DNA of 16,449 nucleotides from Chitinophagaceae bacterium. Its GTDB lineage: Bacteria > Bacteroidota > Bacteroidia > Chitinophagales > Chitinophagaceae. The translations under genes were made by a program, and so were the position numbers. The notes beneath the pieces are model-generated. The model saw only the letters and a list, made by a program, of their open reading frames with translations. It searched no databases and was not told the DNA's origin. Shown one piece after another: positions 1 through 16,449 of this stretch. Each line of letters begins with the position of its first letter. The stretch's first letter is position 1. The stretch lies in the NCBI GenBank assembly GCA_003526435.1, contig DPWF01000058.1, positions 1 to 16,449 of the forward strand. Direction: 5' to 3'.

Positions 1-42
1 TATGGCTGCTATTTTTGGATATATAATAGTGGTTAAGAAAAA

Positions 43-50
43 TAAATTTG
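43..50 (+). promoter_or_regulatory. possible -7 promoter element upstream of fabD
   Basis: TAAATTTG fits the Bacteroidota -7 consensus TAnnTTTG and lies 48 bp before the fabD ATG at 99. The nearest upstream TTTG (14-17) is 25 bp away, which is wider than the usual spacing, so only half of the promoter is convincing. The rest of 1-98 shows no coding signal. Confidence 0.3.
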
Positions 51-98
51 GGATATTGTCAGGATTAGATTTTTTTAGCACTGTCTAAAATCAAATAC

Positions 99-992
99 AT
101 GAATAAGCACGCCTATATATTTCCCGGATAGGGATCGCAGTTTAGCGGAATGGGAAAGAATCTTTATGATAACAATGCCTCCGCGAAGAAGTTATTTGAA
201 AACGCCAATGATATTCTTGGTTTTCGGATCAGTGACATCATGTTTAATGGAACTGATGAAGAACTGAAGCAAACCAATGTAACACAGCCGGCTGTTTTTT
301 TACATTCAGTAGTAGCTTACAGAACCATAGAAGCGGCTACACCGCATATGGTAGCTGGTCATTCATTGGGTGAATTTTCAGCACTGGTTGCCAATAATAC
401 CTTGAGTTTTGAAGATGCCCTGCAATTGGTAAGTATTCGTGCAAAAGCCATGCAGAAAGCTTGTGAACTTGTGCCATCTACCATGGCTGCAGTGCTTGCA
501 TTGGATGATGCTAAAGTAGAGGAAATTTGCGCGGCTGTTCAGGCAGAAACAGGAGAAGTGGTAGTGGCGGCCAATTATAATTGTCCTGGTCAGTTGGTGA
601 TCAGTGGTTCTGTAAAAGGAATTGAAATAGCCTGTGAAAGAATGAAAGCTGCCGGTGCCAAAAGAGCATTGGTATTACCTGTTGGAGGTGCTTTTCACAG
701 CCCCTTAATGGCACCGGCACGTGAAGAACTGGCTGCGGCTATTGAAGCAACCAGTTTTCATCATCCTACTTGCCCGGTTTATCAGAATGTAGTAGCCGCT
801 GCAGTAACTGAGCCTGATATGATCAAACAAAACCTCATTAATCAGTTAACCGGAGCCGTAAGATGGACACAAAGTGTTCAGTCAATGGTGGCCGATGGTG
901 CTACCAACTTTACAGAAGCCGGTCCCGGCAAAGTTTTACAGGGACTGGTTCAGAAAATTTTTAAAGAAGCGGTGGTAGAAGGGGTGAGTTAA
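99..992 (+). CDS. fabD: malonyl-CoA:ACP transacylase FabD, interrupted by an in-frame amber codon
   Basis: FabD moves malonyl groups from CoA to acyl carrier protein, making the extender for cytosolic type II fatty acid synthesis. Counting from the ATG at 99, the protein would have 297 residues, a normal family length. It has the nucleophile motif GHSLGE (Ser89), the substrate arginine in the SIRAKAMQ segment (about Arg115), the catalytic His200 in GAFHSPLM, and a C-terminal GPGKVLQ segment. The N-terminus reads MNKHAYIFPG-stop-GSQFSGMG, so codon 11 of the conserved PGQGSQ motif is TAG (129-131) instead of a Gln codon. The next in-frame ATG is at 150 (residue 18) with no clear ribosome site, and starting there would drop the first strand and the oxyanion-hole loop. 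Everything downstream is intact, which suggests a recent mutation, a polymorphism or a sequencing error. Gene identity is very secure; functional status is open. Confidence 0.9.
129..131 (+). other. premature TAG at the GQGSQ glutamine codon of fabD
   Basis: The codons around it read CCC GGA TAG GGA TCG CAG, which is P-G-stop-G-S-Q. A single C-to-T change from CAG would create it. The second glutamine of the motif (138-140) is intact. In characterised FabD enzymes the first Gln helps form the oxyanion hole. Confidence 0.9.
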
Positions 993-1020
993 TTTGAAAA
1001 TTTTTTGATTTGAAAATGAG
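992..1020 (+). repeat. AT-rich TTTGAAAATGAG-like repeat after the fabD stop
   Basis: Starting at the last base of the fabD TAA, the sequence has two imperfect units of TTTGAAAAT type and ends in TTTGAAAATGAG. A closely similar stretch, ending in TTTGGAAATGAG, lies just behind the stop of the plug-domain gene (7741-7763). Both are on the same side of a convergent gap, so this looks like a dispersed intergenic repeat rather than chance. Confidence 0.5.
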
Positions 1021-1029
1021 GATGGATTG

Positions 1030-1107
1030 TTGATAGTGAGCAGTCAGCAGTGAGTAGTCAGTTATTGTTTCACTCACTACTGACTATTCACTACTCACTA
1101 TTGAAAA
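1030..1107. repeat. two facing arrays of 7-bp repeats forming an inverted repeat
   Basis: The left half (1030-1064) is five imperfect heptamers: TTGATAG, TGAGCAG, TCAGCAG, TGAGTAG, TCAGTTA. The right half (1073-1107) is CTCACTA, CTGACTA, TTCACTA, CTCACTA, TTGAAAA, which is the complementary unit. The halves can pair in more than one register; for example 1049-1061 pairs with 1080-1092 with one G/T position. The GNAT gene's stop codon (complement of 1098-1100) lies inside the last full right-hand unit. The foldback could end transcripts from both convergent genes, but there is no clean T-tract, so a terminator role is an inference. Confidence 0.65.
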
Positions 1108-1550
1108 TCCAACATCCCGTTCACCCATTCAGGATCCAGGGTGGCATTGTATTTTTTGTAGAAGTTGATGGCTGGTTCGTTCAATTCCAATACCTGCCAT
1201 ACCATTCTTTTGAAACCTTTTTCTTTGGCTTCTTCAATGATGCGGTCGAATAATAATTTGCCGGCTCCCTTTCCTCTCAGTTTTTCGGTTACTAAAAAAT
1301 CTTCCAGGTACAAGCATTGACCTTTCCAGGTACTGTAGCGTATATAATAAAGTGCGAAACCTTCTACGTTTCCATCTATTTCGGCTACAAATGCCCACCA
1401 TACGGGGTTTTTGCCGAAACCACTTTCTTCAAAATGTTCCAGTGTTACGGTTACTTCCTGTGGTGCTTTTTCATAATCGGCCAGTTCCTGAACCAGTTCC
1501 AGTAATCTTTTGCAATCTGTTCTTTCAGCTCTTCTGATATGAATGTTCAT
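1098..1550 (-). CDS. GNAT acetyltransferase resembling spermidine/spermine (SAT1-type) N-acetyltransferases
   Basis: A 150-residue single-domain GNAT enzyme that would transfer acetyl from acetyl-CoA to an amine. The pyrophosphate-binding loop RGKGAG is at residues 92-97, preceded by the strand YLEDFLV (81-87). The C-terminal NEPAINFYKK segment (124-133) has Tyr131 at the usual general-acid position. The order of motifs (LADYEKA, GFG..P, FVAE, GFALYY, YLEDF, NEPAINFY) closely follows the SAT1/SAT2 diamine or thialysine acetyltransferase group, so a polyamine or lysine-analogue substrate is plausible but unproven. It starts 14 nt after the serine hydrolase gene ends and probably shares its transcript. 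It ends with TAG inside a heptamer repeat, followed at once by TGA. Confidence 0.85.
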   Translation of the reverse strand: MNIHIRRAERTDCKRLLELVQELADYEKAPQEVTVTLEHFEESGFGKNPVWWAFVAEIDGNVEGFALYYIRYSTWKGQCLYLEDFLVTEKLRGKGAGKLLFDRIIEEAKEKGFKRMVWQVLELNEPAINFYKKYNATLDPEWVNGMLDFQ

Positions 1551-1564
1551 ACAAATAGTGTGAA

Positions 1565-3385
1565 TTATTTTTTTCTTTTGGCAACAAAATTTCCATTTGG
1601 TTGCTGAAATGTTAGTTGGGTTACTTCTTTATCTTTTACTTCAAACTGTACATAATAACCCGCAGCTATTTTAAGTGCAAACCTGTCATTGCCCATAGCA
1701 GACATTTCATATTCGGGTTGCCCGGGTACCAGTGTAAACAGTGTATTATTCTTTACAGACACTTTTACAGTGGCTCCACCGAGTTCATACTCACCTACAT
1801 ATTTCTGAAGATCATCTGCATTGGTTTTAACTGTTCTTGGCGATTTGGTAAACCTCAAAGCATCAAGCGTAGGTTCCAGTTTAAGGTTTAGGGCATTGAT
1901 TTCACCGGATTCATTCATGAAAAACTGAAACTTTAGCGGACTGTTTCCGGAAGTATCAATCTTGCCGTCTTTGTCTACATTGAATGGGCTAAACACATCA
2001 TAGTGATAATGTTTTAACCAGGTAACATCGTTATTGGATATATATCCAAATAAAGAATCGTTACGGGTAATAAGCTCCATACTTCCATAGCCGGGGTGCG
2101 AATAGATGCCTTCGTAATCTTTTAAAGCATGGCTTGGTTTTGTATTTTTCTGCTGGTTGGAACTTGTTGTTTTTTCAGCCTCTTTCGCTGCTTCTTTTGC
2201 TTTTCTATTACTTTCCAAAACATCCCTGTTCCAGTTGAAGTAGGGAATTTTCAACAAACGATCGGCAATCATGTTCCGAACAATAGCTGTTACAGATGAG
2301 GCATTCTGGTTTGTAAGTACAATGATTCCAATGCTGTCGGTAGGAAAGAAACTGGTGCTGGCAGAAAAGCCGTCAATATTACCACCATGCTCTACACGGT
2401 AATGTCCTTTGTATGATGCGAGTGACCAACCCATGCCATAACTGGAGAAAAATACATCGGTTCGTTCTTTTGAGGGTAAACCCGGTCCTGCTACCATTTG
2501 TGCCGTCATAGCCGTGCTTATATAACCAGCAGGTACGATTTCTTTACCCTCATATTTTCCTCCGTTGATCCAGGTAATGACCCATCGTGCCATTTCATTT
2601 ACACTGCTGTTGATGCTACCGGCAGGCCCCATTGCATTGATGTGGTAATAATCTAGTTTATCGATTATGCTGTCTTTTTTTACACCATACCCAATAGCAG
2701 CGTCTGCATCTTTTGTTAATGCTTCAATACTGGTGTTCGATCTCGTCATACCCAAAGGCTGAAAAATATGTGTACTGATATTTTCTTCCCAGCTTTTACC
2801 GGTTAGTTTTTCAGCAATCAATCCTTGTGTAAGGAACATGAAATTATTATACTGCCATCTTTCTCTGATACCGAATGAGGGCTGCTGGTAACGGATTCTC
2901 TGTAAGAGTGTATCTCTTGAATTGGTTTTAAACAGATACCATGAATAATCATGACGTGGTAAACCTGTTCTGTGACTCATCATATCACGAATGCTGATAT
3001 GCTTATCCATATCTTCATTGTAAAACTTTAATGAAGGCAGGTATTTAACAGCCGGTTCATCGAAATCAATCTTTTTGTCTTTTTGAAGAATACCCAGAAG
3101 TGATGATGTAAAGGCCTTGGTACAACTACCAATAGCAAAAAGGGTATTGGGCGTTACTGGTAATTTTTTTTCGTAATCTCTGTAGCCAAACCCCTTTGCA
3201 TACACGATTTTATCTTTTTCTACTACTGCTACGGCAAAACCTGCTGCCAGTTGGTCTTTCAATACTCTTTCAAAAGCGGTATCAAGTCCTGCAAAACGAT
3301 CTGTTTGCGATGGAACTGTATTCTTTTTTTGTGCATAAACAGATATTGCCAGGCAACAGGCAACCAGCATGAAACATAATCTCAT
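1565..3385 (-). CDS. exported S12-family serine hydrolase (beta-lactamase/D-aminopeptidase fold) with C-terminal DUF3471-like domain
   Basis: A 606-residue protein with a signal peptide of about 18 residues (positive start, hydrophobic core, cleavage near VYA-Q), so it should act in the periplasm or at the surface. The class C beta-lactamase-like fold covers about residues 30-380. The nucleophile motif is Ser87-Cys-Thr-Lys90, the second motif is Tyr179-Asn-Asn, and the third is His333-Gly-Gly. After a Lys/Glu/Ala-rich linker (about 392-418), the tail carries a lipocalin-like domain starting LKDYEGIYSHPGYG, as in DUF3471-type esterase/peptidase homologues. Active-site residues are complete, so it is probably an active peptidase or esterase; true beta-lactamase activity is less likely. 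It lies 65 nt behind the PLP enzyme gene and 14 nt ahead of the GNAT gene. No motif fixes the substrate. Confidence 0.88.
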   Translation of the reverse strand: MRLCFMLVACCLAISVYAQKKNTVPSQTDRFAGLDTAFERVLKDQLAAGFAVAVVEKDKIVYAKGFGYRDYEKKLPVTPNTLFAIGSCTKAFTSSLLGILQKDKKIDFDEPAVKYLPSLKFYNEDMDKHISIRDMMSHRTGLPRHDYSWYLFKTNSRDTLLQRIRYQQPSFGIRERWQYNNFMFLTQGLIAEKLTGKSWEENISTHIFQPLGMTRSNTSIEALTKDADAAIGYGVKKDSIIDKLDYYHINAMGPAGSINSSVNEMARWVITWINGGKYEGKEIVPAGYISTAMTAQMVAGPGLPSKERTDVFFSSYGMGWSLASYKGHYRVEHGGNIDGFSASTSFFPTDSIGIIVLTNQNASSVTAIVRNMIADRLLKIPYFNWNRDVLESNRKAKEAAKEAEKTTSSNQQKNTKPSHALKDYEGIYSHPGYGSMELITRNDSLFGYISNNDVTWLKHYHYDVFSPFNVDKDGKIDTSGNSPLKFQFFMNESGEINALNLKLEPTLDALRFTKSPRTVKTNADDLQKYVGEYELGGATVKVSVKNNTLFTLVPGQPEYEMSAMGNDRFALKIAAGYYVQFEVKDKEVTQLTFQQPNGNFVAKRKK

Positions 3386-3450
3386 AGCAGTATATTTTTA
3401 AATGATGATAATGAATCAGTCTCCTCGGGGACGAATTTATTACAGTCAGC

Positions 3451-4674
3451 TTATTTTAATGCCTGTTCCAGATCATTCAGTATATCGTCTATGTTTTCAA
3501 TACCTACGCTCATTCGTATTAGTCCGTCTGTGATGCCATATTTAATTCTTTCCTCACGAGGTATACCAAAATGACTCATACTAGCGGGGTGAGATACCAA
3601 TGTATCAACAGTTCCCAATGAAATGGCGCGTACACACATCTGTAATTTATTGATGAATTGCTTACCCGCATCCAATCCGCCTTTAAGTTCATAACTCATT
3701 ACTGCCCCGGGTAAGCGCATTTGTTTAGCACTTACTGCATGGTCTGGGTGACTTACAAGACCTGTAAAATTTACTTTGGCAATAGCAGGATGTTGTTCCA
3801 GGTATTCTGCTACTTTTTGTGCATTGGCACAATGTCTTTCCATTCTCAACTCCAATGTCTTCATGCCTTGTGCCAGCAAAAAGGCATCAAATGGGTTACT
3901 GTTACCACCTAATAATACATGCCATTTCCATATAGATGTTCTCATCTTCTCCAGGTCTTTTCCAATCAAAACACCCCCGATGGCAGTGCCATGTCCATTG
4001 AGAAATTTTGTGGTAGAATGAAACACAAAATCAACATCGTATTTGAAAGGCTGTTGTAAATAAGGAGTGGCGAAAGTATTATCTACACTCACAATCAGCC
4101 CTTTTGTTTTGGCGATCTTAGATACTGCCTCAATATCCACGCATTGAATGGTTGGATTGGCAGGTGTTTCTATATGCACCATTTTAATGTTGGGATATTG
4201 TTGTATTGCTTCTTCTACTTTATTCAGGTTGCGCATATCAACAATGATCGCTTCAATACCTGTGGCTGCCAATACTTTGGTCATCAGCTCCTGTGTGCCC
4301 CCGTATAATGAATAATGCGATAAAATGGCATCACCTGTTTTTAAGTTACCTAAGAACAACGTGGTCATGGCAGCCTGACCACTGGCATGCAGCAGCGCTT
4401 TTAACTGCAGGGAATTTCCGTTTTTATCTTTCAGACCAAAAGCTTCAAGCGCTGCAATGGTTTCTTCTGCTGCAGTAAATGTAGGGTTGCCCCACCGACT
4501 GTACACCCTGGTTTTATCTGTTCCTGCAAAACGATTCATGCCATCTTCGGCCGTATCGAAGGTAAAAGTGGAAGTGGCGAAAATAGGAGTAAGGTGTGCA
4601 TCTTCTGCATTCTGATGACCAGCAGCATGCATGGCCACGGAACTGATACCAGTAAGTGGAAATTTTTCGGACAT
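3451..4674 (-). CDS. gamma-family PLP sulfur enzyme (methionine gamma-lyase / cystathionine gamma-synthase type)
   Basis: A cytosolic Cys/Met-metabolism PLP enzyme, 407 residues from the preferred start. Numbered from the longer frame that opens at 4731, the PLP lysine is Lys242 in HSTTKFLNGHG, the phosphate-contacting segment YSRWGNPT is at 77-84, and VDNTFATPYL carries Asp217. The C-terminal half (RMERHCANAQ, then HPASMSHFGIPREER, then GLIRMSVGIENIDD) is very like methionine gamma-lyase. However, the cysteine that marks classical methionine gamma-lyases after Tyr-Gly is Gly145 here (LYGGT), so cystathionine gamma-synthase/lyase or O-acylhomoserine sulfhydrylase remain equally possible. I choose ATG 4674 (MSEKFPLTG) because homologues begin near there, and the longer start at 4731 would overlap the divergent DinB start and sit upstream of a -7-like element. 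Confidence 0.85.
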   Translation of the reverse strand: MSEKFPLTGISSVAMHAAGHQNAEDAHLTPIFATSTFTFDTAEDGMNRFAGTDKTRVYSRWGNPTFTAAEETIAALEAFGLKDKNGNSLQLKALLHASGQAAMTTLFLGNLKTGDAILSHYSLYGGTQELMTKVLAATGIEAIIVDMRNLNKVEEAIQQYPNIKMVHIETPANPTIQCVDIEAVSKIAKTKGLIVSVDNTFATPYLQQPFKYDVDFVFHSTTKFLNGHGTAIGGVLIGKDLEKMRTSIWKWHVLLGGNSNPFDAFLLAQGMKTLELRMERHCANAQKVAEYLEQHPAIAKVNFTGLVSHPDHAVSAKQMRLPGAVMSYELKGGLDAGKQFINKLQMCVRAISLGTVDTLVSHPASMSHFGIPREERIKYGITDGLIRMSVGIENIDDILNDLEQALK

Positions 4675-4712
4675 TCTTAGTAAATTGTCTGGGTAAAATA
4701 ATTCTTCTTCCT

Positions 4713-4720
4713 CAAATGTA
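4713..4720 (-). promoter_or_regulatory. possible -7 promoter element for the PLP enzyme gene
   Basis: The minus strand reads TACATTTG, a full match to TAnnTTTG, about 38 bp before the ATG at 4674. A TTG lies 15 nt upstream of it, slightly short of normal spacing. If real, transcription begins after the longer candidate start at 4731, which supports the shorter protein. Confidence 0.35.
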
Positions 4721-4729
4721 AGACGAATC

Positions 4730-5221
4730 ATGAAGCAATTACTACTCTCTTATGCGGCCTATGAAATCTGGGCCAATGAACAATTACTGAACCTGTCAAT
4801 TGAACTGTCTGCAGAGGAGCAAAACAGGCCCATTGTAAGCAGTTTTCCATCTGTTCACAAGACTTTTTTGCATATGTGGGATGCTTCCAGCGCATGGTGG
4901 CAACGTTTACAGATGCATGAACAGGTAGTGATGCCAAGTCTTAGCTTTCACCCCAATATGAAAGATATAGCGAATGGGTTACTGCAACAGAATCGTCAAT
5001 GGCATGCTTTTGTACATGAAGCAAGTGATGAAACACTATCAGCACCCATGCCTTATAAAAATATGAAAGGAGAGCATTTTATACAGCCCGTTTTCGAGGT
5101 TGTAATGCATCTGACCAATCATGGTACCTATCATCGTGGACAAGTAATAACCCTGCTCCGGCAACTTGGGGTGGAAAAAATACCACAAACAGATTATATT
5201 TTGTTTACCAGAGGGAAGTAG
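4730..5221 (+). CDS. DinB-family putative metal-dependent protein
   Basis: A 163-residue four-helix-bundle protein of the DinB/YfiT-like group. The start MKQLLLSYAAYEIWANEQLL is typical for the family, which supports ATG 4730. The expected metal-binding histidine triad is present: His48 in FLHMWD, then His131 and His135 in HGTYHRGQ. Some relatives are thiol-dependent transferases acting with bacillithiol or mycothiol, others are only known as damage-induced proteins, so no reaction can be assigned. It is divergent from the PLP enzyme gene; a shared 55-bp gap (4675-4729) separates them if the shorter start of that gene is right. It ends with TAG. Confidence 0.82.
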   Translation: MKQLLLSYAAYEIWANEQLLNLSIELSAEEQNRPIVSSFPSVHKTFLHMWDASSAWWQRLQMHEQVVMPSLSFHPNMKDIANGLLQQNRQWHAFVHEASDETLSAPMPYKNMKGEHFIQPVFEVVMHLTNHGTYHRGQVITLLRQLGVEKIPQTDYILFTRGK

Positions 5222-5278
5222 GTGCCTGATAAAGTTTGGATTAAAATAAGGGGGCGATTTTAACGTTTCCCTCAACAC

Positions 5279-5307
5279 TTGTTACGCTCTTTTATTATCT
5301 ATCTTAG
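5279..5307 (+). promoter_or_regulatory. candidate promoter for the MG2/TonB-plug gene
   Basis: TTG at 5279-5281 is followed after 18 nt by TATCTTAG (5300-5307), one mismatch from TAnnTTTG and with normal Bacteroidota spacing. The ATG at 5324 follows closely, behind a purine-rich AAAAGAGAG stretch that could serve as ribosome site. The rest of the 102-nt gap after the DinB gene shows nothing else. Confidence 0.42.
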
Positions 5308-5323
5308 CGCAAAAGAGAGTTAG

Positions 5324-7732
5324 ATGACGCGTATTTTACCTTTTGTTATTGTTTTGATCATGTCTATTGCGGGTGAGAGAGTCAACGCACAATTCGTTGA
5401 TTCCATAATGGATGCCCATGCCAATTTATTCCCGAAAGAAAAAATACATATTCATTTTGATAAGCAGTTGTACAATCAGGAAGAAACCATCTGGTATAAG
5501 CTTTATCTGATGACTGATAATATACCAAGTCCATTAAGCAGGAATGTATATGTTGATTGGTACGATTGGGAAGGTAAAATGTTGCGGCAGACAGTCGGAC
5601 CTCTTTTTCAGTCAACAACCAAAGGTTCTTTCGATATACCTGCCGGTTATAAAGGAGAATTTGTAAGGGTAAAAGCATATACCCGATGGATGCTGAATGA
5701 TGATACCAGTTTTCTGTACCAGAAAGATATCCTGGTAAATAAACGTGATAAACCAGTAAAAAAGCAAGTAGTGTCACGCACCAAACTGGAACTTTTTCCG
5801 GAGGGTGGCGCTATTGTGGAGGGCCTGGAAGAGAAAATAGCGTTTAAAGCCAGCAATCAGTTTGGAATACCGGTCATGATCAAAGGAGCTTTATTGAATG
5901 ATAAAAATACAGTGCTTGATTCCATGCGTGTTTTACATGATGGTATGGGAACTTTTTCTTTACGTGCCATACCCGGTGAGAAATATCGTGTAGACTGGAC
6001 CGACGAAAATGGTGTAAAAGGTAGTACAGCAGTTAGCGGTATCAGGCAGGAAGGAGTTTCGCTTAGTATTCAGGGTACCAACGACAAAGCCTTGATAAAA
6101 GTTCAACGTTCCGCTAATGTGGATGACAACAGTAAACAATTATTTCTCCTTGTACATATGAATGAGCGGCCTATTTATAAAGTGCAGCTTAAGATGACAG
6201 AGAAAACGGTAATTAATACCGCAGTACCTATTGATGAAATGCAAACGGGGATACTTCAGTTTTCGCTGTTTACCAATAACTGGACCCCGCTTGAAGAACG
6301 TATTTTATTTGTCAACAACCGCCTGCATGAATTCAATGCAAGGGTGAATCCGGGAATTATTGATCTTAAAAAACGTGGTAAAAACGTTGTTGAAATATTT
6401 GTTTCAGACACAGCAGCTACCAATATGTCGGTGTCGATTACTGATGCTGAACTAGCCGGTCCGGAGCAACACAGTATTTTTTCAGATTTTCTTCTTAATA
6501 ACCAATTGCGGGGTTATATCCATAATCCGGCATTCTACCTGAAAAGTGATGCCGACAGTGTTACAAGAAGACTTGATCTCGTGATGTTGACGAATGGTTG
6601 GAGACGTTTTGACTGGGATAAAATAAAAGCAGCCAAAGAGCCTGTATTACAATACCAGCCTGAGACAGATTTTATGAAACTGCAGGGCAAAGTATATGGT
6701 ATGGAAACCATAAAAAATGCTGGCCCTGCACAGTTGAATCTTGTTTTATCGAATAAAGACAGCAGTGTAAACATGTATTTTGTTCCGGTACAGAAGGATG
6801 GAACTTTTGAGGAACCCAATGTTTTCTTTTTTGATACTGCAAGGGTTTATTACAACCTGAATGATAATAATAAAACAGCAGGTCGTGTAACACAGGTGCA
6901 GTTGAGTAATGGTCTTTTGAAAAAACAACCCGGAAGTACCACGCGTATCGATCAACAACCTTATTTACAAGCATTGTCAGATAGCCTTGCCCTGGCTCGC
7001 CTGAATATGTTTTTACTGGAAGAAGAAAAACTGAGGAAAAGTATGGCGTCTACTACTTTGCAGGAAGTAGTGGTACAGGCAAAGACAAAGAATCCAATGC
7101 AGATAATAGATGAAAAATATGCGTCTGGTCTTTTCTCTGGTGGAGATGCGTATAGTTTTGATCTTACTTCCGACCGTACCGCAATGGGCGCATTTAATGT
7201 ATTGACTTATCTGCAGGGTAAAGTAGCCGGCTTACAGATATCGGGATCAGGATCGCAGATGTCGCTTAGCTGGCGTGGTGGAACACCATCTTTATACCTG
7301 AATGAAATGATTTCGAATGTAGATATGGTTCAATCTATTCCTGTATCTGATATTGCATACATTAAAGTGATGCGACCTCCCTTTTTCGGAGCAGGTGGCG
7401 GCGGAGCCGATGGGGCAATTGCTATTTATACCAAGAAAGGAGGTGATGCCAAAAGAAATGATCCGAGTAAAAAAGGAATGGAAACAACCATACTTGCAGG
7501 TTATTCACGATTCAGAGAATTTTATAACCCCAGTTATGAGAAAGATGCTGCTTCTTATGATGCAGACACCAGAAGCACCCTTTACTGGAACCCGTATATC
7601 ATGACCAATAAAAAAACACCCAGATTCAGGGTAGAATTTTATAACAACGATTTCTCAAAAAAACTGTTGCTGGTACTGGAAGGTATGAATGCAGATGGAA
7701 AGATGACGAGGACGGTGAGGTATTTGGAGTAA
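5324..7732 (+). CDS. exported MG2-domain protein with C-terminal TonB-receptor plug domain, no beta-barrel
   Basis: An 802-residue exported protein with a signal peptide ending near NAQ (residue 23). Residues 36-140 form an alpha-2-macroglobulin MG2-like unit: KEKIHIHFDKQLYNQEETIW, then VYVDWYDWEG, and GEFVRVKAYTRWM. Further beta-rich macroglobulin-like segments follow to about residue 450. From about 576 (LQEVVVQAKTK) to 706 (GADGAIAIYTKKG) it has a TonB-dependent-receptor plug: a predicted loop region, the LYLNE strand, the VSDIAYIKVMRPP strand and a glycine-rich turn. About 96 residues follow, ending FRVEFYNNDFSKK and LVLEGMNADGK, far too few for a 22-strand barrel, so it is not a nutrient receptor by itself. 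Such proteins are frequent in Bacteroidota and probably act at the outer membrane or periplasm, but their job is not established. It appears to have its own promoter. Confidence 0.82.
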   Translation: MTRILPFVIVLIMSIAGERVNAQFVDSIMDAHANLFPKEKIHIHFDKQLYNQEETIWYKLYLMTDNIPSPLSRNVYVDWYDWEGKMLRQTVGPLFQSTTKGSFDIPAGYKGEFVRVKAYTRWMLNDDTSFLYQKDILVNKRDKPVKKQVVSRTKLELFPEGGAIVEGLEEKIAFKASNQFGIPVMIKGALLNDKNTVLDSMRVLHDGMGTFSLRAIPGEKYRVDWTDENGVKGSTAVSGIRQEGVSLSIQGTNDKALIKVQRSANVDDNSKQLFLLVHMNERPIYKVQLKMTEKTVINTAVPIDEMQTGILQFSLFTNNWTPLEERILFVNNRLHEFNARVNPGIIDLKKRGKNVVEIFVSDTAATNMSVSITDAELAGPEQHSIFSDFLLNNQLRGYIHNPAFYLKSDADSVTRRLDLVMLTNGWRRFDWDKIKAAKEPVLQYQPETDFMKLQGKVYGMETIKNAGPAQLNLVLSNKDSSVNMYFVPVQKDGTFEEPNVFFFDTARVYYNLNDNNKTAGRVTQVQLSNGLLKKQPGSTTRIDQQPYLQALSDSLALARLNMFLLEEEKLRKSMASTTLQEVVVQAKTKNPMQIIDEKYASGLFSGGDAYSFDLTSDRTAMGAFNVLTYLQGKVAGLQISGSGSQMSLSWRGGTPSLYLNEMISNVDMVQSIPVSDIAYIKVMRPPFFGAGGGGADGAIAIYTKKGGDAKRNDPSKKGMETTILAGYSRFREFYNPSYEKDAASYDADTRSTLYWNPYIMTNKKTPRFRVEFYNNDFSKKLLLVLEGMNADGKMTRTVRYLE

Positions 7733-7740
7733 TAATCTGG

Positions 7741-7763
7741 AAATTTGAGAATTTGGAAATGAG
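7741..7763 (+). repeat. AT-rich TTTGGAAATGAG-like repeat after the plug-domain gene
   Basis: Nine bases after the TAA at 7730-7732, AAATTTGAGAATTTGGAAATGAG repeats an AATTTG-type unit. It resembles 992-1020 behind fabD in composition, unit and position. Between here and 7836 the sequence holds only a single stray TGAATAG (7803-7809) and no gene. Confidence 0.45.
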
Positions 7764-7836
7764 GTGTTTTCGTATAGCTATTGTTTTTTGATGTAGCATG
7801 ATTGAATAGTAGGTGCTGAGATTTATTTTAAACGAC

Positions 7837-7894
7837 AAAAAAACGCTGTGTAACTCTCCAAGGAAAATCCTTTGATGCTTGTTACACAGCGTTT
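7837..7894 (-). terminator. intrinsic terminator behind fabH, possibly bidirectional
   Basis: A perfect 14-bp inverted repeat (7841-7854 with 7881-7894; arm AAACGCTGTGTAAC) encloses a 26-nt loop that holds a second small hairpin, AAGGA (7860-7864) with TCCTT (7868-7872). Read on the minus strand, the stem is followed by seven T residues (complement of 7837-7843), the layout of a Rho-independent terminator for fabH. On the plus strand no T-run follows, but the stem could still end the convergent plug-domain transcript. Confidence 0.8.
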
Positions 7895-7898
7895 CAAT

Positions 7899-7933
7899 AT
7901 TCACCATTCACGTTTCATCATTCACTATTCACG
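7899..7933 (-). repeat. five 7-bp tandem repeats overlapping the fabH stop codon
   Basis: On the plus strand the units are ATTCACC, ATTCACG, TTTCATC, ATTCACT, ATTCACG, strictly in 7-bp steps. On the fabH strand they read as TGAATAG/TGAATGG-like units. The fabH stop TGA (complement of 7929-7931) is the TGA of the first unit. This is the same type of unit and the same relation to a stop codon as at 1073-1107. Confidence 0.65.
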
Positions 7934-8927
7934 CCCCATCATATCCCCACTTCACCCAGGTAGCGCCCCAGGTAAAACCTCCGCCAAATGCGGCAAGTAC
8001 AATATTGTCGCCTTTTTTAAGTTGTTTCTCCCAATCCCATAAACAGAGCGGGAGCGTTGCGGCAGTTGTATTTCCGTATTTCTGAATATTGATCATTACT
8101 TTTTCCTTGGGCAATCCCATGCGATTGGCCGTTGCATCAATAATGCGCAGGTTGGCCTGGTGCGGTACCAGCCATGCAATATCATCGCCTGTAAGTCCAT
8201 TTCTTTCCAGTAATTCTGCACTAACGTCTGCCATACCTTTTACAGCAAATTTGAAAACAGCCTGTCCTTCCTGGTAGGCAAAATGTTCTTTTGCCATTAC
8301 TGTTTCTACAGTAGCAGGTTTTACAGAACCGCCAGCTTTCATGTGTAAATAATGTCGGCCACTTCCATCACTTCTTAAAATACTGTCCAGTATACCCGAG
8401 CCATCTGTTGAAGGTTCCAGTAAAACGGCGCCTGCGCCATCACCAAAAAAGATGCAGGTGGCACGGTCGGTATAATCTATTATGGCACTCATTTTATCAA
8501 CACCTACCACAATTACTTTTTTAAATCTTCCACTTTCAATATACATGGCACCAGTGGTAAGTGCATACAGAAAACCACTGCAGGCGGCACTCATATCATA
8601 ACCCCAGGCGTTGGTAGCACCAATTTTATCACAGATAATATTGGCAGTTGCAGGGAACACCATGTCGGGGGTAACCGTGGCACAGATGATACAGTCGATA
8701 TCGAGCGGATCAAGATTTTTCTTGCGTAAAATTTCCTGCACTGCCGGAACGGCCATATCGCTGCTTCCTTTACCTGGCTCTTTTAATATTCTTCTTTCTT
8801 CGATACCGGTACGGGTACGTATCCATTCGTCATTGGTATCTACCATTTTCTCCAGATCGAAATTGGTAAGTTTATCTTCCGGTACATATCCGCCAACTGC
8901 GGTAATCGTTGCTGTGGGTTTATTCAT
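7929..8927 (-). CDS. fabH: beta-ketoacyl-ACP synthase III
   Basis: FabH condenses an acyl-CoA starter with malonyl-ACP, the first step of each fatty acid in type II synthesis, in the cytosol. The 332-residue length is normal. The catalytic triad is complete: Cys116 in [11 protein letters not shown], His256 in PHQANLRI, and Asn286 in [10 protein letters not shown]. The thiolase-fold glycine motif [10 protein letters not shown] (161-170) and the C-terminal [13 protein letters not shown] are also typical. The ATG lies 1 nt behind the stop of the PIN toxin gene, with no room for its own promoter or a separate leader, so it looks like the last gene of the toxin-antitoxin operon. Many Bacteroidota genomes carry more than one fabH-like gene, so this need not be the only copy. 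The end is marked by a heptamer repeat and a strong terminator. Confidence 0.95.
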
Positions 8928-8928
8928 T

Positions 8929-9348
8929 TTACTGATTAAATGCGTTTAAGAATTCTTTCGGTGACTGAATTAAAACTTGTTTGGATTTATTGAAATCTTT
9001 TTTGTCTCTCGTTATGATGCAATGTAATCCCGGTATTGAAAGGGAAGAGGCAAATTGAATGGCGTCTTCAAAATCTTTGATCTCAGAGTCAAGCGCTTCT
9101 TCAATTATCCTGTTATCTACTGTTACTGTCGTTAGCAACCTGTTTAAATCACGAAGTATATCTTTCGCTGCAGGTTTGCCAACAAATTTTTGCAGAAAAT
9201 AACCGATCTGCGTATAGCTTACCGCCGACAGGTAACCATCTATTTCTTTCTTATATAGTAACTTAAAAATTTCTATGGCTTCATCATCAAAAGCTGATCG
9301 CTTCAGAAGAAAATCCAATACTACATTTATGTCGAGAAATACTTTCAT
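8929..9348 (-). CDS. PIN-domain ribonuclease toxin (VapC-like)
   Basis: A 139-residue PIN-domain protein, the toxin half of a type II toxin-antitoxin pair; such toxins cleave RNA with a Mg2+ site. The start [17 protein letters not shown] gives Asp6 and Asp12, and the DFEDAIQFA motif gives Asp92, Glu94 and Asp95. ITRDKKDF supplies Asp115 and Asp118. The second conserved acid of classical VapC is not obvious (SAVSYTQI around residue 45), which is common in the PIN_3-like branch. The antitoxin gene ends 3 nt upstream and fabH begins 1 nt downstream, so translation of all three may be coupled. Acidic residues look sufficient for activity; the RNA target cannot be read from the sequence. Confidence 0.88.
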
Positions 9349-9351
9349 TAA

Positions 9352-9606
9352 CTAGCTGTACTTTTTAATGATTTCTTCTTCGATGATTTCTTTGTAACTT
9401 CTATCGTCTTTTTTTGTGTCGATACAACCGTGTAATCGTTTTAGAATGGGTGGCAGCTCTTCTTCAGTGTTTTTCTTTTGTTTTTTGGGCAAGCCACGTA
9501 GGTAGCCTTCAATGATTTTAGAAAGGCTTTTGCCAGACTCGCGGGCATATGCTTTGGCATCTGCTACAACAGCTTCATCGATCAATAAAGTAAGTTTGGC
9601 AGACAT
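9352..9606 (-). CDS. ribbon-helix-helix antitoxin (DUF6364-like)
   Basis: An 84-residue antitoxin. Residues 4-39 (KLTLLIDEAVVADAKAYARE, then SGKSLSKIIEGYLRGL) form a ribbon-helix-helix DNA-binding unit. The charged tail (40-84, rich in Lys and Glu) is the part that would wrap and block the PIN toxin encoded 3 nt downstream. Members of this family typically repress their own operon as dimers bound to short palindromes. Two ATACGTA sites spaced 23 bp apart sit at its start codon and promoter, which suits such control. It ends with TAG. Confidence 0.85.
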   Translation of the reverse strand: MSAKLTLLIDEAVVADAKAYARESGKSLSKIIEGYLRGLPKKQKKNTEEELPPILKRLHGCIDTKKDDRSYKEIIEEEIIKKYS

Positions 9607-9635
9607 ACGTACCTTTTTTTTGCAAATATACGTAT
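9605..9635 (-). promoter_or_regulatory. candidate promoter and operator of the antitoxin-toxin-fabH operon
   Basis: The minus strand carries TATATTTG (complement of 9623-9630), a full match to TAnnTTTG, 17 nt ahead of the antitoxin ATG. ATACGTA occurs at 9605-9611, overlapping the start codon, and again within the palindrome ATACGTAT at 9628-9635. The 23-bp offset is close to two helical turns. Placement over the -7 element and start is what autoregulation would need. No clear -33 element was found. Confidence 0.45.
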
Positions 9636-9655
9636 TATCTCTCGTTTTTTACCCC

Positions 9656-9663
9656 TATTTTTG
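9656..9663 (+). promoter_or_regulatory. possible -7 promoter element for ruvA
   Basis: TATTTTTG matches TAnnTTTG and ends 9 nt before the ruvA ATG at 9673, so the mRNA leader would be only a few bases. No convincing -33 element lies at the right distance. Confidence 0.3.
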
Positions 9664-9672
9664 ATACCTGCT

Positions 9673-10257
9673 ATGATCGCTTTTGTAAGAGGAAAATTTG
9701 CAATTAAAACCCCCGCCCGTGTGGTGGTGGATGTGAATGGGGTGGGTTACGACCTGCAAATCAGTCTGAATACCTATGCGGCGATCAGTAACGTAGAAAA
9801 CGGACAATTACACACTTATTTACATATTACCGAAAATGCACAAACATTGTTCGGTTTTGCCGATATTGCAGAGAAGGAACTTTTCCTGCAACTGATTAGT
9901 GTGTCGGGGGTGGGAGCATCAACTGCCCGAATGATGTTATCCGGAATGAAACCCGATGAAATCATCAGGGCCATTGTTCAAGGCAACACAAAGCAGTTGG
10001 AAGGAATCAAAGGTATTGGAAAGAAATCGGCAGAAAGACTGATTGTTGAGTTGCGTGATAAACTGGGTAAGCAAACAATTGGTCAGCCATTGGGTGGTGC
10101 AATTATTTCCAGTATAGATCAGGATGCCGTACAGGCACTGATAGCATTGGGAATACCCAAACCACAGGCCGAAAATGCCATCAATAAAACCATGTCATCC
10201 ATACCTGAAGATGCATCATTGGAACTGATCATCAAACAGGCATTAAAAAATTTATAG
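9673..10257 (+). CDS. ruvA: Holliday junction branch migration protein RuvA
   Basis: RuvA binds four-way DNA junctions as a tetramer and loads the RuvB motor for branch migration in recombination and repair. The 194 residues show the three usual domains. The N-terminal OB fold has MIAFVRGK, VVVDVNGVGYDLQIS and the HITENAQTLFGF segment. The middle has two helix-hairpin-helix motifs, LISVSGVGASTARMML and LEGIKGIGKKSAERLIVELRD. A linker leads to the small C-terminal RuvB-contact domain (DAVQALIALGIPKPQAENAI). A TTG at 9661 would add four residues, but ATG 9673 matches the family start. It is divergent from the toxin-antitoxin operon; sprA starts 38 nt downstream, and ruvA-sprA adjacency is familiar in Bacteroidota. 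It ends with TAG. Confidence 0.95.
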   Translation: MIAFVRGKFAIKTPARVVVDVNGVGYDLQISLNTYAAISNVENGQLHTYLHITENAQTLFGFADIAEKELFLQLISVSGVGASTARMMLSGMKPDEIIRAIVQGNTKQLEGIKGIGKKSAERLIVELRDKLGKQTIGQPLGGAIISSIDQDAVQALIALGIPKPQAENAINKTMSSIPEDASLELIIKQALKNL

Positions 10258-10295
10258 TCTATCGCATATACTTCTACTTAACCAAGAGTTTCACA

Positions 10296-13200
10296 TTGCG
10301 TTCGCGACTGCTTTTTATCATTACCCTGGCCCTGTTTTGGCATACCAGCTTGTTGGCTCAGCAACGGGATTCTTTACGCTATCCCATTAACGACAGAAGA
10401 GCCGACGCAATTTCTGAAAAAAGCAACAATCCTTTCGACCTGCGCGATACTTCACTCATCAAGCGAACCATTGAATACGATCCTGCAACCAAACAATATG
10501 TGATTGTTGAAAAAATCGGGAATCGTTATTACCGCACACCTACTACACTAACATTTGAAGAGTTCTGGCGTTTACAGGCGCGTGAGCAGGAAAGAGCCTA
10601 TTTTAAAAAACGTTCTGATGCTTTAACTCTGCTGAATAAAAAAGTACAGCGTCCGCCGCTTCGTGTCTATAACAGTTTATTTGATCGCATATTCGGATTG
10701 AATGATGTAGTGAACAGGTATGGTGGAGATGTTAAAGATGCCATTGGTAATGTAAAAGATGCGGCCAATGAACTCGCCGCACAAAACAGGCTCAAAATTG
10801 ATATACGCCCTACAGGCGATGTAAACATCATGGCAGGTTATCAGGGACAAAACATCAAGAATCCTACTTTACCTGAACGTGCGAGAAAAAATGGCGGATT
10901 TGATTTCGACATGAATGCCAACCTGAATGTAAATGCCAATATTGGTAATAAACTTAAATTCCCGATCAACTATAATACCGTTTCTAACCTCAACTTCGAT
11001 AACCAGATCAAACTTGATTATAAGGGAATGGATGATGAACTGATCAAAAGTATTGAAGCAGGTAATATTTCTTTCCAGTCGAGAGGTACATTGATACCCA
11101 GTGCACAGAATTTATTTGGGATTAAAACACAACTTCAGTTTGGTAAATTATTTGTAACGGGTGCATTGGCCAATCAGCGTTCCAGCAGACAGTCGGTTGC
11201 ATTACAGGGTGGAGCTGCCAGTCAGAATTTTCAAAAAAGAATGGATGATTATGAAGAGAACCGCCACTTCCTGTTGGGTCAGTATTTCAGGGATAACTTT
11301 AATAAAGTAATGCGTAACCTGCCTGTGGTAAACTCACAGGTGCAGATACAGAGAATTGAAGTATGGGTAACCAATCGCACAGGTGCTACCACCGAAGCCC
11401 GCGATATTGTGGGTTTGATGGATCTTGCAGAAACAAGACCATATAACCCGGCTGTTACACCACTGACCAATAATCCCTTACCTTATAACCAGGCCAATAA
11501 TTTATATGGTTCATTGGCAGGTGATCCGAACAGTCGAAATCCATCCTTTATCAATACACTGTTATTGTCAAAAGGATTGAGACCAGTAGATGACTATGAA
11601 AAAACTTTTGCAAGAAAACTCGCCACAACAGAATACTCATTTAATCCGCAGGCAGGTTTTCTTTCCATCAATACACAATTACAGCCCGATGAAGTGCTGG
11701 CGGTGGCTTTTCAATACACCTATAACGGTCGAGTGTACCAGGTAGGTGAATTTTCGCAGGATGTAGCACTCGATTCGGCCAGTGGTGTTCAGAAAGTACT
11801 GTTCCTTAAATTATTAAAAGCAACATCGCAGCGTATACAGTTGCCTATATGGGACTGGATGATGAAAAACGTGTATTCACTGGATGTCTTTGGTGGAATA
11901 CAAAGAGAAGATTTTAAACTGAATGTGCTTTATGAAGAACCCAGTGGTGGATTGAAGAGATATTTACCAGAAACTTCCCCTTCAGTTGATGGACAACCTC
12001 TGTTACGCATATTGAATCTGGATAGACTAAATAACCGGAACGATCCTCAGCCCGACGGTGTATTTGATTTTATTGATGGCTTCACGGTATTGCCACAAAC
12101 AGGGAAAGTCATATTTCCGGTACTTGAGCCTTTTGGTCGTGATCTTGATACACTGGCATTTGGAGGCTTACCTGCATCCGTGAAAAACAAGTACCTGTAT
12201 TATGCTTTATATGATTCTATTAAAGCCATCGCACAAACCTATGCCAACCTTAACCGCTTTGTGATGCAGGGTCAGGTAAAAGGAAGCAGCAGTGGTTCTG
12301 AAATATTCCTGAATACATTTAACATACCACAGGGTTCGGTAACAGTTACAGCAGGCGGACAGATTTTAAAAGAGGGTACTGATTATACAGTTGATTATAA
12401 TCTTGGAACAGTACGAATCCTGAATGCAGGTATCCTCAATTCCAATGTACCTGTGAATGTTTCCTTTGAAAACAATGCAGGTTTTGGTATGCAACAGCGG
12501 GGGTTTAGTGGGTTGCGACTTGATTATGTGGCCAATAAAAAATTGACGCTGGGCGCCACTGCTGTTAGATTGGGTGAACGGCCCTTCTTTACTAAAATGG
12601 GTTATGGCGACGATCCGATCCGTAACACCATGTATGGCCTTGATTTTAGTTACCAGTCTGAATTACCAGGCTTAACAAGATTGTTGAATAAACTTCCGTT
12701 CTATTCTACCAAAGCAACATCGGCTATCAATGCATATGGTGAAGCTGCATTTCTTAAACCGGGTCACCCGCCGCAGATCGGTAAAGGGGAACAGGGTTTA
12801 ATATTTGTGGATGATTTTGAAGGAACAAGAACGAGCATTGATTTGCGTTTTCCTTTTGTATCATGGGCATTGGCCTCTACACCACAGGGTAACCCTAAAT
12901 TTCCTGAAGCTACTTTAACCGATTCCATCGATTACAATTTCAACCGGGCCAAACTCGCCTGGTATAATATTGAACCGCGTTTGCAGGATAAGAACAGCAG
13001 CAACAATCCATTGCGAAGAAACCTTGCTGAATTGAGTGACCCACGTGTTCGTCAGGTATTTACCAATGAATTATTTCCACAGCGTACAACCAATATCACC
13101 GATGTACAGACTGCAACATTTGACCTTGCATTTTATCCAACAGAAAAAGGACCATATAATTTTGAAACAAGACCTTCAGAATTTACAGCCAATGGAAGAT

Positions 13201-16200
13201 TAACAAAGCCCGCTAACAGGTGGGGTGGTATTATGCGTGCTATTGATCAAACCGATTTTGAAACCGGAAATATTGAGTTCTTTGAAATCTGGCTGCAGAA
13301 TCCATTCATACTTAACCCGGGAAGCCGTGGCGGTAAGCTCTTCCTGAACCTGGGTAATATCAGTGAAGATATTTTGAAAGACGGCAAACGTTTTTATGAA
13401 AATGGATTGAATACACCTAATATTCCTGCATCGGTTGATAGTTCGAATACATGGGGTAAAACACCCGTGAATCCTATTCAGATTACACAGGCATTCAGTA
13501 ATGACCCGAATGACAGACCCTTTCAGGATGTTGGTTTCGACGGACTGGATGATGCGGCGGAACGAAGAAAGAAGGGATATGTATTAAATCGTATTGCGCA
13601 GAATTTCGGTACCAGTTCTACAGCATTCATTCAGGCACAAGAAGACCTGGCACGTGATAACTATAAATGGTTTCGCGATAATTCATTCGATCAGTCGGGC
13701 ACAGGAATTTTAGGCAGGTATAAAAACCATAACAACCCACAGGGCAATTCACCTATTGCTACAACTGGCGGACAATTTACACCGGCAGCCACTTTATATC
13801 CCGATAATGAAGACCTGAACCGTGATAACACATTGAATGAAACAGAAGCTTATTATGAATATGAAGTAAACCTGCGTCCGGGAATGGATGTAGGTATTAC
13901 TCCTTATATCACAGATAAAAGAAGAATTACCGTAAATGCTGCGGATGGAACCACTAAAACAGAAGACTGGTTTTTATTCCGTATCCCTATCCGTTCATTC
14001 TCTAACAAAGTGGGTAGTATCTCCGATTTTAAATCTATACGTTTTGCGCGTTTATACCTCACCGATTTTGAAGACTCTGTTGTGATTCGTATGGCTCGTA
14101 TGGATCTCGTGAGAAACCAGTGGAGACAGTTTTCATTCAATCTCGATACAACAGGTTCTTATACACCAGTGAATAATGCTGCGGGTACAACCTTTAATAC
14201 CCTTGCAGTTAACCTAGAAGAGAACAGTAGCAGAACGCCGGTTAACTATATTATGCCTCCTGGTGTGGAGCGAGTTCAGTTATTGAGTAATAATGGCGTG
14301 AACCTGCAGCAGAATGAGCAGGCCATGAGTTTGCAGATCAGGAACCTTGTAACAGGAGATGCCCGTGCGGTATTTAAAACCCTGAATCTTGATATCAGAC
14401 AGTATGGTAACCTCAACATGTTCCTGCATGCAGAGTCTGTGCCAGGTCAGCGTGTACTGCAGGATAATGAACTCTATGCTGTTGTGCGTATTGGCCAGGA
14501 TTTCCTGAATAACTACTATGAAATTAAAGTACCGCTGAAAGTAACTACACCTGGTAATTATCCTCGCGGACAGGAAGAAAAAGTATGGCCATTAGCCAAT
14601 GAACTGAATGTGAGTTTAAGAGACCTGATCGACCTCAAACTGCGCAGAAATAAACTGGGCGGAACGGTTACCAATATTTATCGTGAAAGAGTAGGCGACA
14701 AAACCTATTCTGTTCGTGGTAACCCGAATCTGGGAGAAGTGAGAGGTATACTGGTAGGTGTGGAGAATCCATACAGACCAGATGGTCCGACATTGAGTTC
14801 TGAAGTATGGGTAAATGAATTGCGTTTGTCGGATATGGATGAACGCGGCGGATGGGCGGCAGTGGGTAGAGTAGACCTCTTACTGGCTGATCTGGGAACC
14901 ATGTCGGTATCGGCCAATACCAGGTCACAGGGTTTTGGTACCATTGAACAAAGGGTGAATGAAAGAGCGCGCGATAACCTCATGCAGTTCGATGTTGCTG
15001 CCAGTATTGATGCAGGTAAACTGTTGCCCAAGAAAGCAAGAATCTCATTACCAGTATATGCAAGCATCAATAGAACGGTATTAACACCTGAATACGATCC
15101 GTTCGACAGAGATGTGCGTTATAAAGAGAAATTAAACAATAGTCCGGCCGATAAAAGAGATTCTATCCGTAAAGCAGCGGTTGACCAGACCACGATACGC
15201 ACACTCAATTTCACCAATGCCAGAATATTACCCGGTAGTAAGCAAGGGTTGTTGAGTCTGAGCAATTTCGATTTCAGTTATTCCTTTACGCAGACAGAGC
15301 AAAACAGTCCGGTGATTGAACAGAATAAAGTAACCAGACATCGTGGAGGTTTCGGATATACGTACAACACACAAAGCAGATACATAGAGCCGTTTAAGAA
15401 ATTCATTAAATCAAATTCTCCCTGGTATGCTTTGGTGAAAGATTTTAACTTCAACCTGCGGCCATCTTTTATCAGCTTCAGGGCAGATATACAGAGACAG
15501 TTTGGTGAGTTTATTCCCCGTATCATAAATACATATGACGGTAAAGTAGATCGTGTAGATACTACTTACGACAAGTACTTTACGTTTGATCGTTTTTATA
15601 ACCTGCGTTGGGATCTGAGCCGTTCACTCAATCTTGACTTCTCTGCTACCAACAATGCACGGGTTGACGAACCGTTTGGAAGAATTGATAGCAAAGCAAA
15701 GAAAGATTCTGTCTGGAAAAACTTTATGAAGGGCGGAAGAAATACTTTGTACAACCAGAAGGCAACACTGAGTTATACCTTACCACTGAATAAGTTTCCA
15801 TTAACAGACTGGATCACGGCGCGTTATGGTTATACCACTACCTATAACTGGATAGGAGCCAGCAGACTGGCTTACAACTTAGGTAATACACTGGAAAATT
15901 CACAGGAAAACAATTTTACGGCACAGTTTAACTTTGCAAGCCTCTATGCCAAATCGAGATGGATGAGGGCATTGGAGAATGTTCCTCCGCCACGACAAAA
16001 AGGCGATACCACCAAAAAGCAAAAGCCACCATCGAATTTGTTGGGCTCTACTTTATTGCCAAAATCTGTGGCTTTACAGGGACTGTTGGGTAAAGACAGA
16101 AAAGAGGCATTGAAAAAATGGCGTGCGCAAAGAAGGGATGAGCGAATAGCACAGAAATTATTACGGGCCAACCAATTACCTGAATTAAGTGGACTGGAAA

Positions 16201-16449
16201 GAACAGGTGGTAAACTACTCACCATGCTCAAGAATGTATCAGTAAACTATTCTGCCAATTTCAGGAGCAGGCTGCCGGGTTATATGGACAGCACAAAATT
16301 CTTTGGGCAGAACTTCAACAGTATGGCGCCGGGGCTTGATTATGTATTTGGCAAACAACCCGATACAGCCTGGCTCAATAAAAAAGCGGCACAGGGTTTA
16401 TTGTCGAGGGATACCACATTCAATTTCCTGTTTCGCCAGAGCTTTGAAC
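10296..16449 (+). CDS. sprA: SprA, outer-membrane translocon of the type IX secretion system (3' end outside the window)
   Basis: SprA forms the very large single-chain outer-membrane beta-barrel through which the type IX secretion system exports proteins. The window holds about 2,051 codons of a protein usually near 2,300-2,500 residues, so the C-terminus is missing. The N-terminus LRSRLLFIITLALFWHTSLLA then QQ is a good signal peptide, cleaved near residue 21. Family marks include MAGYQGQNIKNPTLPERARK, repeated LNFDNQIKLDYKG-type barrel strands, and IFVDDFEGTRTSIDLRFPFV (from residue 836). Later come Asn/Phe/Tyr-rich barrel strands. No in-frame ATG lies between the upstream stop (10206-10208) and the signal peptide, so TTG 10296 is the best start, with AAGAG about 8 nt before it. 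The frame was checked at several points to the end and stayed open; not every codon was read. Confidence 0.93.
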   Translation, partial: MRSRLLFIITLALFWHTSLLAQQRDSLRYPINDRRADAISEKSNNPFDLRDTSLIKRTIEYDPATKQYVIVEKIGNRYYRTPTTLTFEEFWRLQAREQERAYFKKRSDALTLLNKKVQRPPLRVYNSLFDRIFGLNDVVNRYGGDVKDAIGNVKDAANELAAQNRLKIDIRPTGDVNIMAGYQGQNIKNPTLPERARKNGGFDFDMNANLNVNANIGNKLKFPINYNTVSNLNFDNQIKLDYKGMDDELIKSIEAGNISFQSRGTLIPSAQNLFGIKTQLQFGKLFVTGALANQRSSRQSVALQGGAASQNFQKRMDDYEENRHFLLGQYFRDNFNKVMRNLPVVNSQVQIQRIEVWVTNRTGATTEARDIVGLMDLAETRPYNPAVTPLTNNPLPYNQANNLYGSLAGDPNSRNPSFINTLLLSKGLRPVDDYEKTFARKLATTEYSFNPQAGFLSINTQLQPDEVLAVAFQYTYNGRVYQVGEFSQDVALDSASGVQKVLFLKLLKATSQRIQLPIWDWMMKNVYSLDVFGGIQREDFKLNVLYEEPSGGLKRYLPETSPSVDGQPLLRILNLDRLNNRNDPQPDGVFDFIDGFTVLPQTGKVIFPVLEPFGRDLDTLAFGGLPASVKNKYLYYALYDSIKAIAQTYANLNRFVMQGQVKGSSSGSEIFLNTFNIPQGSVTVTAGGQILKEGTDYTVDYNLGTVRILNAGILNSNVPVNVSFENNAGFGMQQRGFSGLRLDYVANKKLTLGATAVRLGERPFFTKMGYGDDPIRNTMYGLDFSYQSELPGLTRLLNKLPFYSTKATSAINAYGEAAFLKPGHPPQIGKGEQGLIFVDDFEGTRTSIDLRFPFVSWALASTPQGNPKFPEATLTDSIDYNFNRAKLAWYNIEPRLQDKNSSNNPLRRNLAELSDPRVRQVFTNELFPQRTTNITDVQTATFDLAFYPTEKGPYNFETRPSEFTANGRLTKPANRWGGIMRAIDQTDFETGNIEFFEIWLQNPFILNPGSRGGKLFLNLGNISEDILKDGKRFYENGLNTPNIPASVDSSNTWGKTPVNPIQITQAFSNDPNDRPFQDVGFDGLDDAAERRKKGYVLNRIAQNFGTSSTAFIQAQEDLARDNYKWFRDNSFDQSGTGILGRYKNHNNPQGNSPIATTGGQFTPAATLYPDNEDLNRDNTLNETEAYYEYEVNLRPGMDVGITPYITDKRRITVNAADGTTKTEDWFLFRIPIRSFSNKVGSISDFKSIRFARLYLTDFEDSVVIRMARMDLVRNQWRQFSFNLDTTGSYTPVNNAAGTTFNTLAVNLEENSSRTPVNYIMPPGVERVQLLSNNGVNLQQNEQAMSLQIRNLVTGDARAVFKTLNLDIRQYGNLNMFLHAESVPGQRVLQDNELYAVVRIGQDFLNNYYEIKVPLKVTTPGNYPRGQEEKVWPLANELNVSLRDLIDLKLRRNKLGGTVTNIYRERVGDKTYSVRGNPNLGEVRGILVGVENPYRPDGPTLSSEVWVNELRLSDMDERGGWAAVGRVDLLLADLGTMSVSANTRSQGFGTIEQRVNERARDNLMQFDVAASIDAGKLLPKKARISLPVYASINRTVLTPEYDPFDRDVRYKEKLNNSPADKRDSIRKAAVDQTTIRTLNFTNARILPGSKQGLLSLSNFDFSYSFTQTEQNSPVIEQNKVTRHRGGFGYTYNTQSRYIEPFKKFIKSNSPWYALVKDFNFNLRPSFISFRADIQRQFGEFIPRIINTYDGKVDRVDTTYDKYFTFDRFYNLRWDLSRSLNLDFSATNNARVDEPFGRIDSKAKKDSVWKNFMKGGRNTLYNQKATLSYTLPLNKFPLTDWITARYGYTTTYNWIGASRLAYNLGNTLENSQENNFTAQFNFASLYAKSRWMRALENVPPPRQKGDTTKKQKPPSNLLGSTLLPKSVALQGLLGKDRKEALKKWRAQRRDERIAQKLLRANQLPELSGLERTGGKLLTMLKNVSVNYSANFRSRLPGYMDSTKFFGQNFNSMAPGLDYVFGKQPDTAWLNKKAAQGLLSRDTTFNFLFRQSFE

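Follow-up and report, generated by a model that had tools for sequence, protein, structure and literature searches.

The window analyzed here, a stretch of 16,449 bases, makes up bases 1 to 16,449 of an 18,017-base contig (C120), which belongs to a Sediminibacterium-like, metagenome-type assembly of 3.02 Mb in 420 contigs (G000) that is 73% complete. Only 98 bases of the contig precede a forward-strand fabD frame (positions 99 to 992) for malonyl-CoA:ACP transacylase, an enzyme that is normally essential. The frame starts with ATG, reads MNKHAYIFPG over its first 10 codons, meets TAG at 129 to 131, and then runs through 286 open codons to TAA; no other in-frame stop lies inside it. This agrees with the initial annotation, which placed the TAG at codon 11 of a frame otherwise open from ATG 99. 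The distance from the TAG to the start of the contig is 129 bases. Between fabD and the following GNAT gene (window 1020 to 1110), a short unit can be seen by eye to recur, imperfectly, in both orientations. Farther along the forward strand, an 802-amino-acid protein is encoded at 5324 to 7732, which we used as a marker for the same organism. Next to fabH, two small adjoining genes (8929 to 9606) look like those for a PIN-type toxin and its antitoxin, a naming that comes from the initial annotation and general knowledge; neither protein has an NCBIfam match. An open frame of 2,445 codons with a TTG start and a TAG end begins at 10296 and continues past the window's end, to 17633 in the longer locus sequence (L038).

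The frame at 99 to 992 is fabD, because the TIGR00128 cut-off of 260.9 bits is passed both by the part of the frame at 150 to 992 (280 amino acids; 290.6 bits) and by P0001, a 297-amino-acid FabD with Gln at position 11 (325.6 bits); the PF00698 profile matches the frame as well. The nucleophile motif GHSLG is present in the translation as AGHSLGE, and a structure search with P0001 as the query returned solved FabD structures as the nearest by sequence. Compared with known FabD (TIGR00128; Escherichia coli structure 1mla), the window's frame therefore shares the profile score, the GHSLGE motif, and the remaining sequence, whereas its codon 11 is TAG where the relatives that were read have a Gln codon. 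The GQGSQ loop is interrupted in the window by this TAG and is complete in P0001.

The Gln at this position had been described as catalytic and as contributing to the oxyanion hole. Excerpts of a study of E. coli FabD (PMC10054515) bear out the second part, assigning the main-chain amide of Gln11 to the oxyanion hole and also crediting the residue with substrate positioning. Because the oxyanion-hole role belongs to the main-chain amide, the side chain would be neither the catalytic nucleophile nor the base, as far as these excerpts go. The same consideration bears on whether translation could restart downstream of the stop and yield a working, shortened FabD. The first ATG after the TAG is at 150 and is codon 18, so that a restart drops residues 1 to 17, as had been noted. 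The resulting 280-amino-acid frame (150 to 992) still scores above the TIGR00128 cut-off, but it lacks the GQGSQ loop, the Gln11 backbone amide of which forms part of the oxyanion hole in the E. coli enzyme according to the same excerpts, and this loop is kept in all 120 listed homologues. A functional restart product is therefore highly improbable.

The initial annotation had also suggested comparing codon 11 among close relatives, and this comparison leaves the window alone. Codon 11 was read at 148 loci by locating the motif, of which 10 gave no reading: six tRNA loci and L021, L096, L114, and L135. In L114 the GQGSQ motif is present after a YPG variant, and in L021 only the stretch around GHSLG was seen. 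The 138 readings comprised 81 CAG, 53 CAA, and 4 TAG, all four TAG readings being copies of the window's own locus. After the removal of duplicates, 110 distinct fabD sequences remained (62 CAG, 47 CAA, and the single TAG of the window), such that every one of the 109 related sequences read carries CAG or CAA at the position of the in-frame TAG. The loci included those from a DNA search of the genus that matched 127 genomes, with codon 11 read in the best 30, and those from a search for FabD relatives, of which the best 80 of 457 were kept. At the protein level, Gln at position 11 and the GQGSQ loop were found in all 120 FabD homologues listed (the best 120 of 8,000 scored), and the window's own 280-amino-acid product was absent among these 120 matches.

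The neighboring codon 10 is GGA in the window, whereas the five named relatives aligned with it (L039 to L043) carry GGT. If GGT were the codon of this species, two neighboring bases would be wrong in the window, which argues against a simple single-base error. However, GGA also occurs at codon 10 in more distant relatives, and so this codon does not decide the matter. Contamination of the genome bin by the contig was considered as well, since no FabD protein among the first 40 relatives exceeded 84% identity, but nothing in these comparisons suggests it. The wider genus search gave closer relatives than those 40, such as G086 (85% identical in fabD DNA), and the named kin are Sediminibacterium. 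Among the best 80 of 457 relatives, the nearest named ones by the last 280 residues of FabD are a Sediminibacterium metagenome-assembled genome (96%) and Sediminibacterium goheungense (94%).

Reassignment of TAG to Gln is a known phenomenon, whether as a changed code such as NCBI table 15 or through an amber suppressor, and a fabD that is functional as written would require UAG to be read as Gln in one of these ways. The placement of the TAG exactly at a conserved Gln position and the intact frame beyond it resemble such recoding. In contrast to recoded genomes, however, TAG behaves here as a normal terminator and release factor 1 (RF1) is encoded. TAG ends five genes on the window's own contig, namely those for GNAT, DinB, the antitoxin, and RuvA and the 2,445-amino-acid open reading frame; the first four had already been listed as TAG-terminated, correctly, with names that apart from ruvA are those of the initial annotation. 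It also ends 9 of the 55 sampled genes with an almost full-length alignment (TAA, 34; TGA, 12). The RF1 gene (prfA; L158 on contig C319) is whole in all five near kin, but here an assembly gap divides it into two pieces. A loss of RF1 was considered on account of this split and rejected, as the two pieces overlap in the profile yet differ in sequence and look like a scaffolding join. To us the split prfA suggests a scaffold that was joined wrongly or that combines strains. Global reassignment of TAG, which had been judged unlikely from the outset, can accordingly be dismissed on the grounds that TAG terminates genes normally and RF1 is encoded, though in two pieces.

A suppressor tRNA inserting Gln, one of three explanations offered at first, found no support. 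A search of the whole 73% complete genome recovered six tRNAs (Phe, Arg, Asp, Met, Cys, and Leu), none with a CUA anticodon, a count so low that the absence of a suppressor from it is not proof, and 60 contigs that include these six known genes yielded no further tRNA. Internal stops elsewhere in the assembly, described below, are not specific to TAG, and among 34,692 aligned codons that of fabD alone is a clean case of TAG in place of Gln; a further TAG that stands opposite Gln is located 32 bases from a run of N in a poorly aligned stretch. That UAG is read as Gln in this organism, by a suppressor or a changed code, is thus extremely unlikely. We would give equally little credence to the specific scenario of a Sediminibacterium population in which an essential fabD, despite an amber codon at its oxyanion-hole Gln, stays functional thanks to a rare amber suppressor, with TAG still acting as an ordinary stop in other genes.

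The condition of the assembly was surveyed in a nonrandom sample of 61 of its 420 contigs (480,643 bases), including C120, C319, and the six tRNA-bearing contigs. The reference consisted of 1.2 Mb from the relative G109, in 60 stretches, with 103 of 1,005 reference frames entering the comparison, and the resulting 116 alignments spanned 34,816 residues on 27 of the 61 contigs. N was present in 41 of the 61 sampled contigs, the runs representing either assembly gaps or masked stretches without distinction between the two. All 10 frame breaks found by script, among them the split in prfA, had N within 60 bases. Before cleaning, the sample contained ten internal in-frame stops relative to G109 (4 TAG, 4 TAA, and 2 TGA). 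Seven of these were set aside by eye as lying by N runs, at a gene end, or in misaligned stretches: one in L254 (32 bases from an N run), one in L158 (next to the last residue), two in L259 (misaligned start), and three in L164 (misaligned), two of the last standing opposite gaps and hence outside the count of aligned codons.

Three clean stops remained. Besides the fabD TAG, these are a TAA opposite Glu in a recG-like gene (L248, on contig C170), located roughly 100 bases before the contig ends, at about position 4049 of 4150, and a mid-contig TAA opposite Gln near position 890 in L174 (contig C278), a gene that is 71% identical to its relative and may be a true pseudogene. The recG-like gene is 92% identical to its counterpart in G109 and 98% identical to its best database relative, and no identical protein was found among the database matches listed. 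Aligned codons less than 150 bases from a contig end made up 1,113 of 34,692. It is suggestive that two of the three clean stops lie near contig ends, although leaving out fabD, the case from which the analysis started, gives the fairer figure of one in two, and such numbers are too small to establish an end effect. A general rise in errors toward contig ends was not seen either: with the surroundings of N left out, identity to the reference was not lower near the ends (0.859 within 150 bases compared to 0.818 beyond 600 bases).

Further evidence on the nature of the stop comes from a second contig. A protein search with the window's FabD as the query, the stop being read as Gln, returned P0001, which is identical to the window's FabD at every other position and carries Gln at position 11. 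The source contig of P0001 is 257,191 bases long, so that the protein cannot derive from the window's 18,017-base contig. A search with the 802-amino-acid neighbor recovered the window's own protein, on the 18,017-base contig, followed by P0122, whose source contig also measures 257,191 bases, and then by the next relative at 89% identity. P0122 matches the window's protein at 800 of 802 residues, the differences falling at residues 17 and 20. Because the two source contigs have the same size, they are probably one and the same, and this contig and the window presumably come from the same species. The same locus of that species, in the longer contig, therefore appears to encode an intact FabD, as judged from P0001 as a protein sequence. 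It is very unlikely that the Gln11 of P0001 was printed by a gene caller applying a code with TAG as Gln to a 257-kb bacterial contig.

The main rival to an error in the sequence is a true nonsense allele present in some cells, in which fabD would be inactive and the cells would be dying, would rely on another transacylase, or would belong to a minor strain picked by the assembler. A fresh nonsense mutation covered by a second transacylase had been raised in the initial annotation, and what survives of that proposal is the strain variant. All but one of the fabD codons are intact, as would be expected for a very recent mutation, sequences of several strains or paralogues may have been combined in the assembly, as the prfA pieces suggest, and the two assemblies differ by 2 of 802 residues in the neighboring protein. 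Against this stand the usual essentiality of FabD and a profile search for a second copy, which the initial annotation had suggested and in which the window's fabD was the sole PF00698 match in the 73% complete genome. None of the 109 other distinct fabD sequences read has a stop at codon 11. Overall, we regard a true nonsense allele as unlikely, and its probability is nonetheless well above that of either recoding or restart.

We therefore consider the TAG to be real in the database record and most likely an error of consensus calling or assembly close to where the contig ends. The organism's fabD would be an ordinary one that encodes Gln at position 11, and the error would have entered the consensus of this metagenome-type assembly in the terminal part of a contig; we infer that the base call is wrong rather than a true minor variant. 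This reading is favored because an otherwise identical protein with Gln11 is encoded on another, longer contig, because the neighboring gene has a copy identical at 800 of 802 residues on a contig of the same 257,191 bases, and because all 109 kin sequences read have CAG or CAA. Likewise in its favor, the TAG is located 129 bases from the contig start in a fragmentary and N-containing assembly, and a second clean stop, that of the recG-like gene, has a similar position, roughly 100 bases from where its contig ends. It is weakened by the observations that contig ends are not generally error ridden, that clean stops besides fabD number two with one near an end, that the intact copy is seen as protein only, and that the 286 codons after the TAG are clean. 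Premature stops from consensus errors are known in draft metagenome assemblies, and the fabD lesion resembles them in being single, at a contig end, and absent from the protein of another contig that apparently belongs to the same species, but differs in that the error is deduced from the comparison of assemblies rather than shown by reads. Of the three explanations first put forward for the stop, sequencing or assembly error is thus the best supported, and the initial interpretation as a whole is partly upheld.

If the stop were true, a gene that is normally essential would naturally carry an amber codon. Most likely, however, it is not a real biological feature of this Sediminibacterium-like organism. 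As it stands, the case serves as a caution that an isolated stop close to a contig end in draft metagenome data calls for comparison with another assembly before recoding is invoked.
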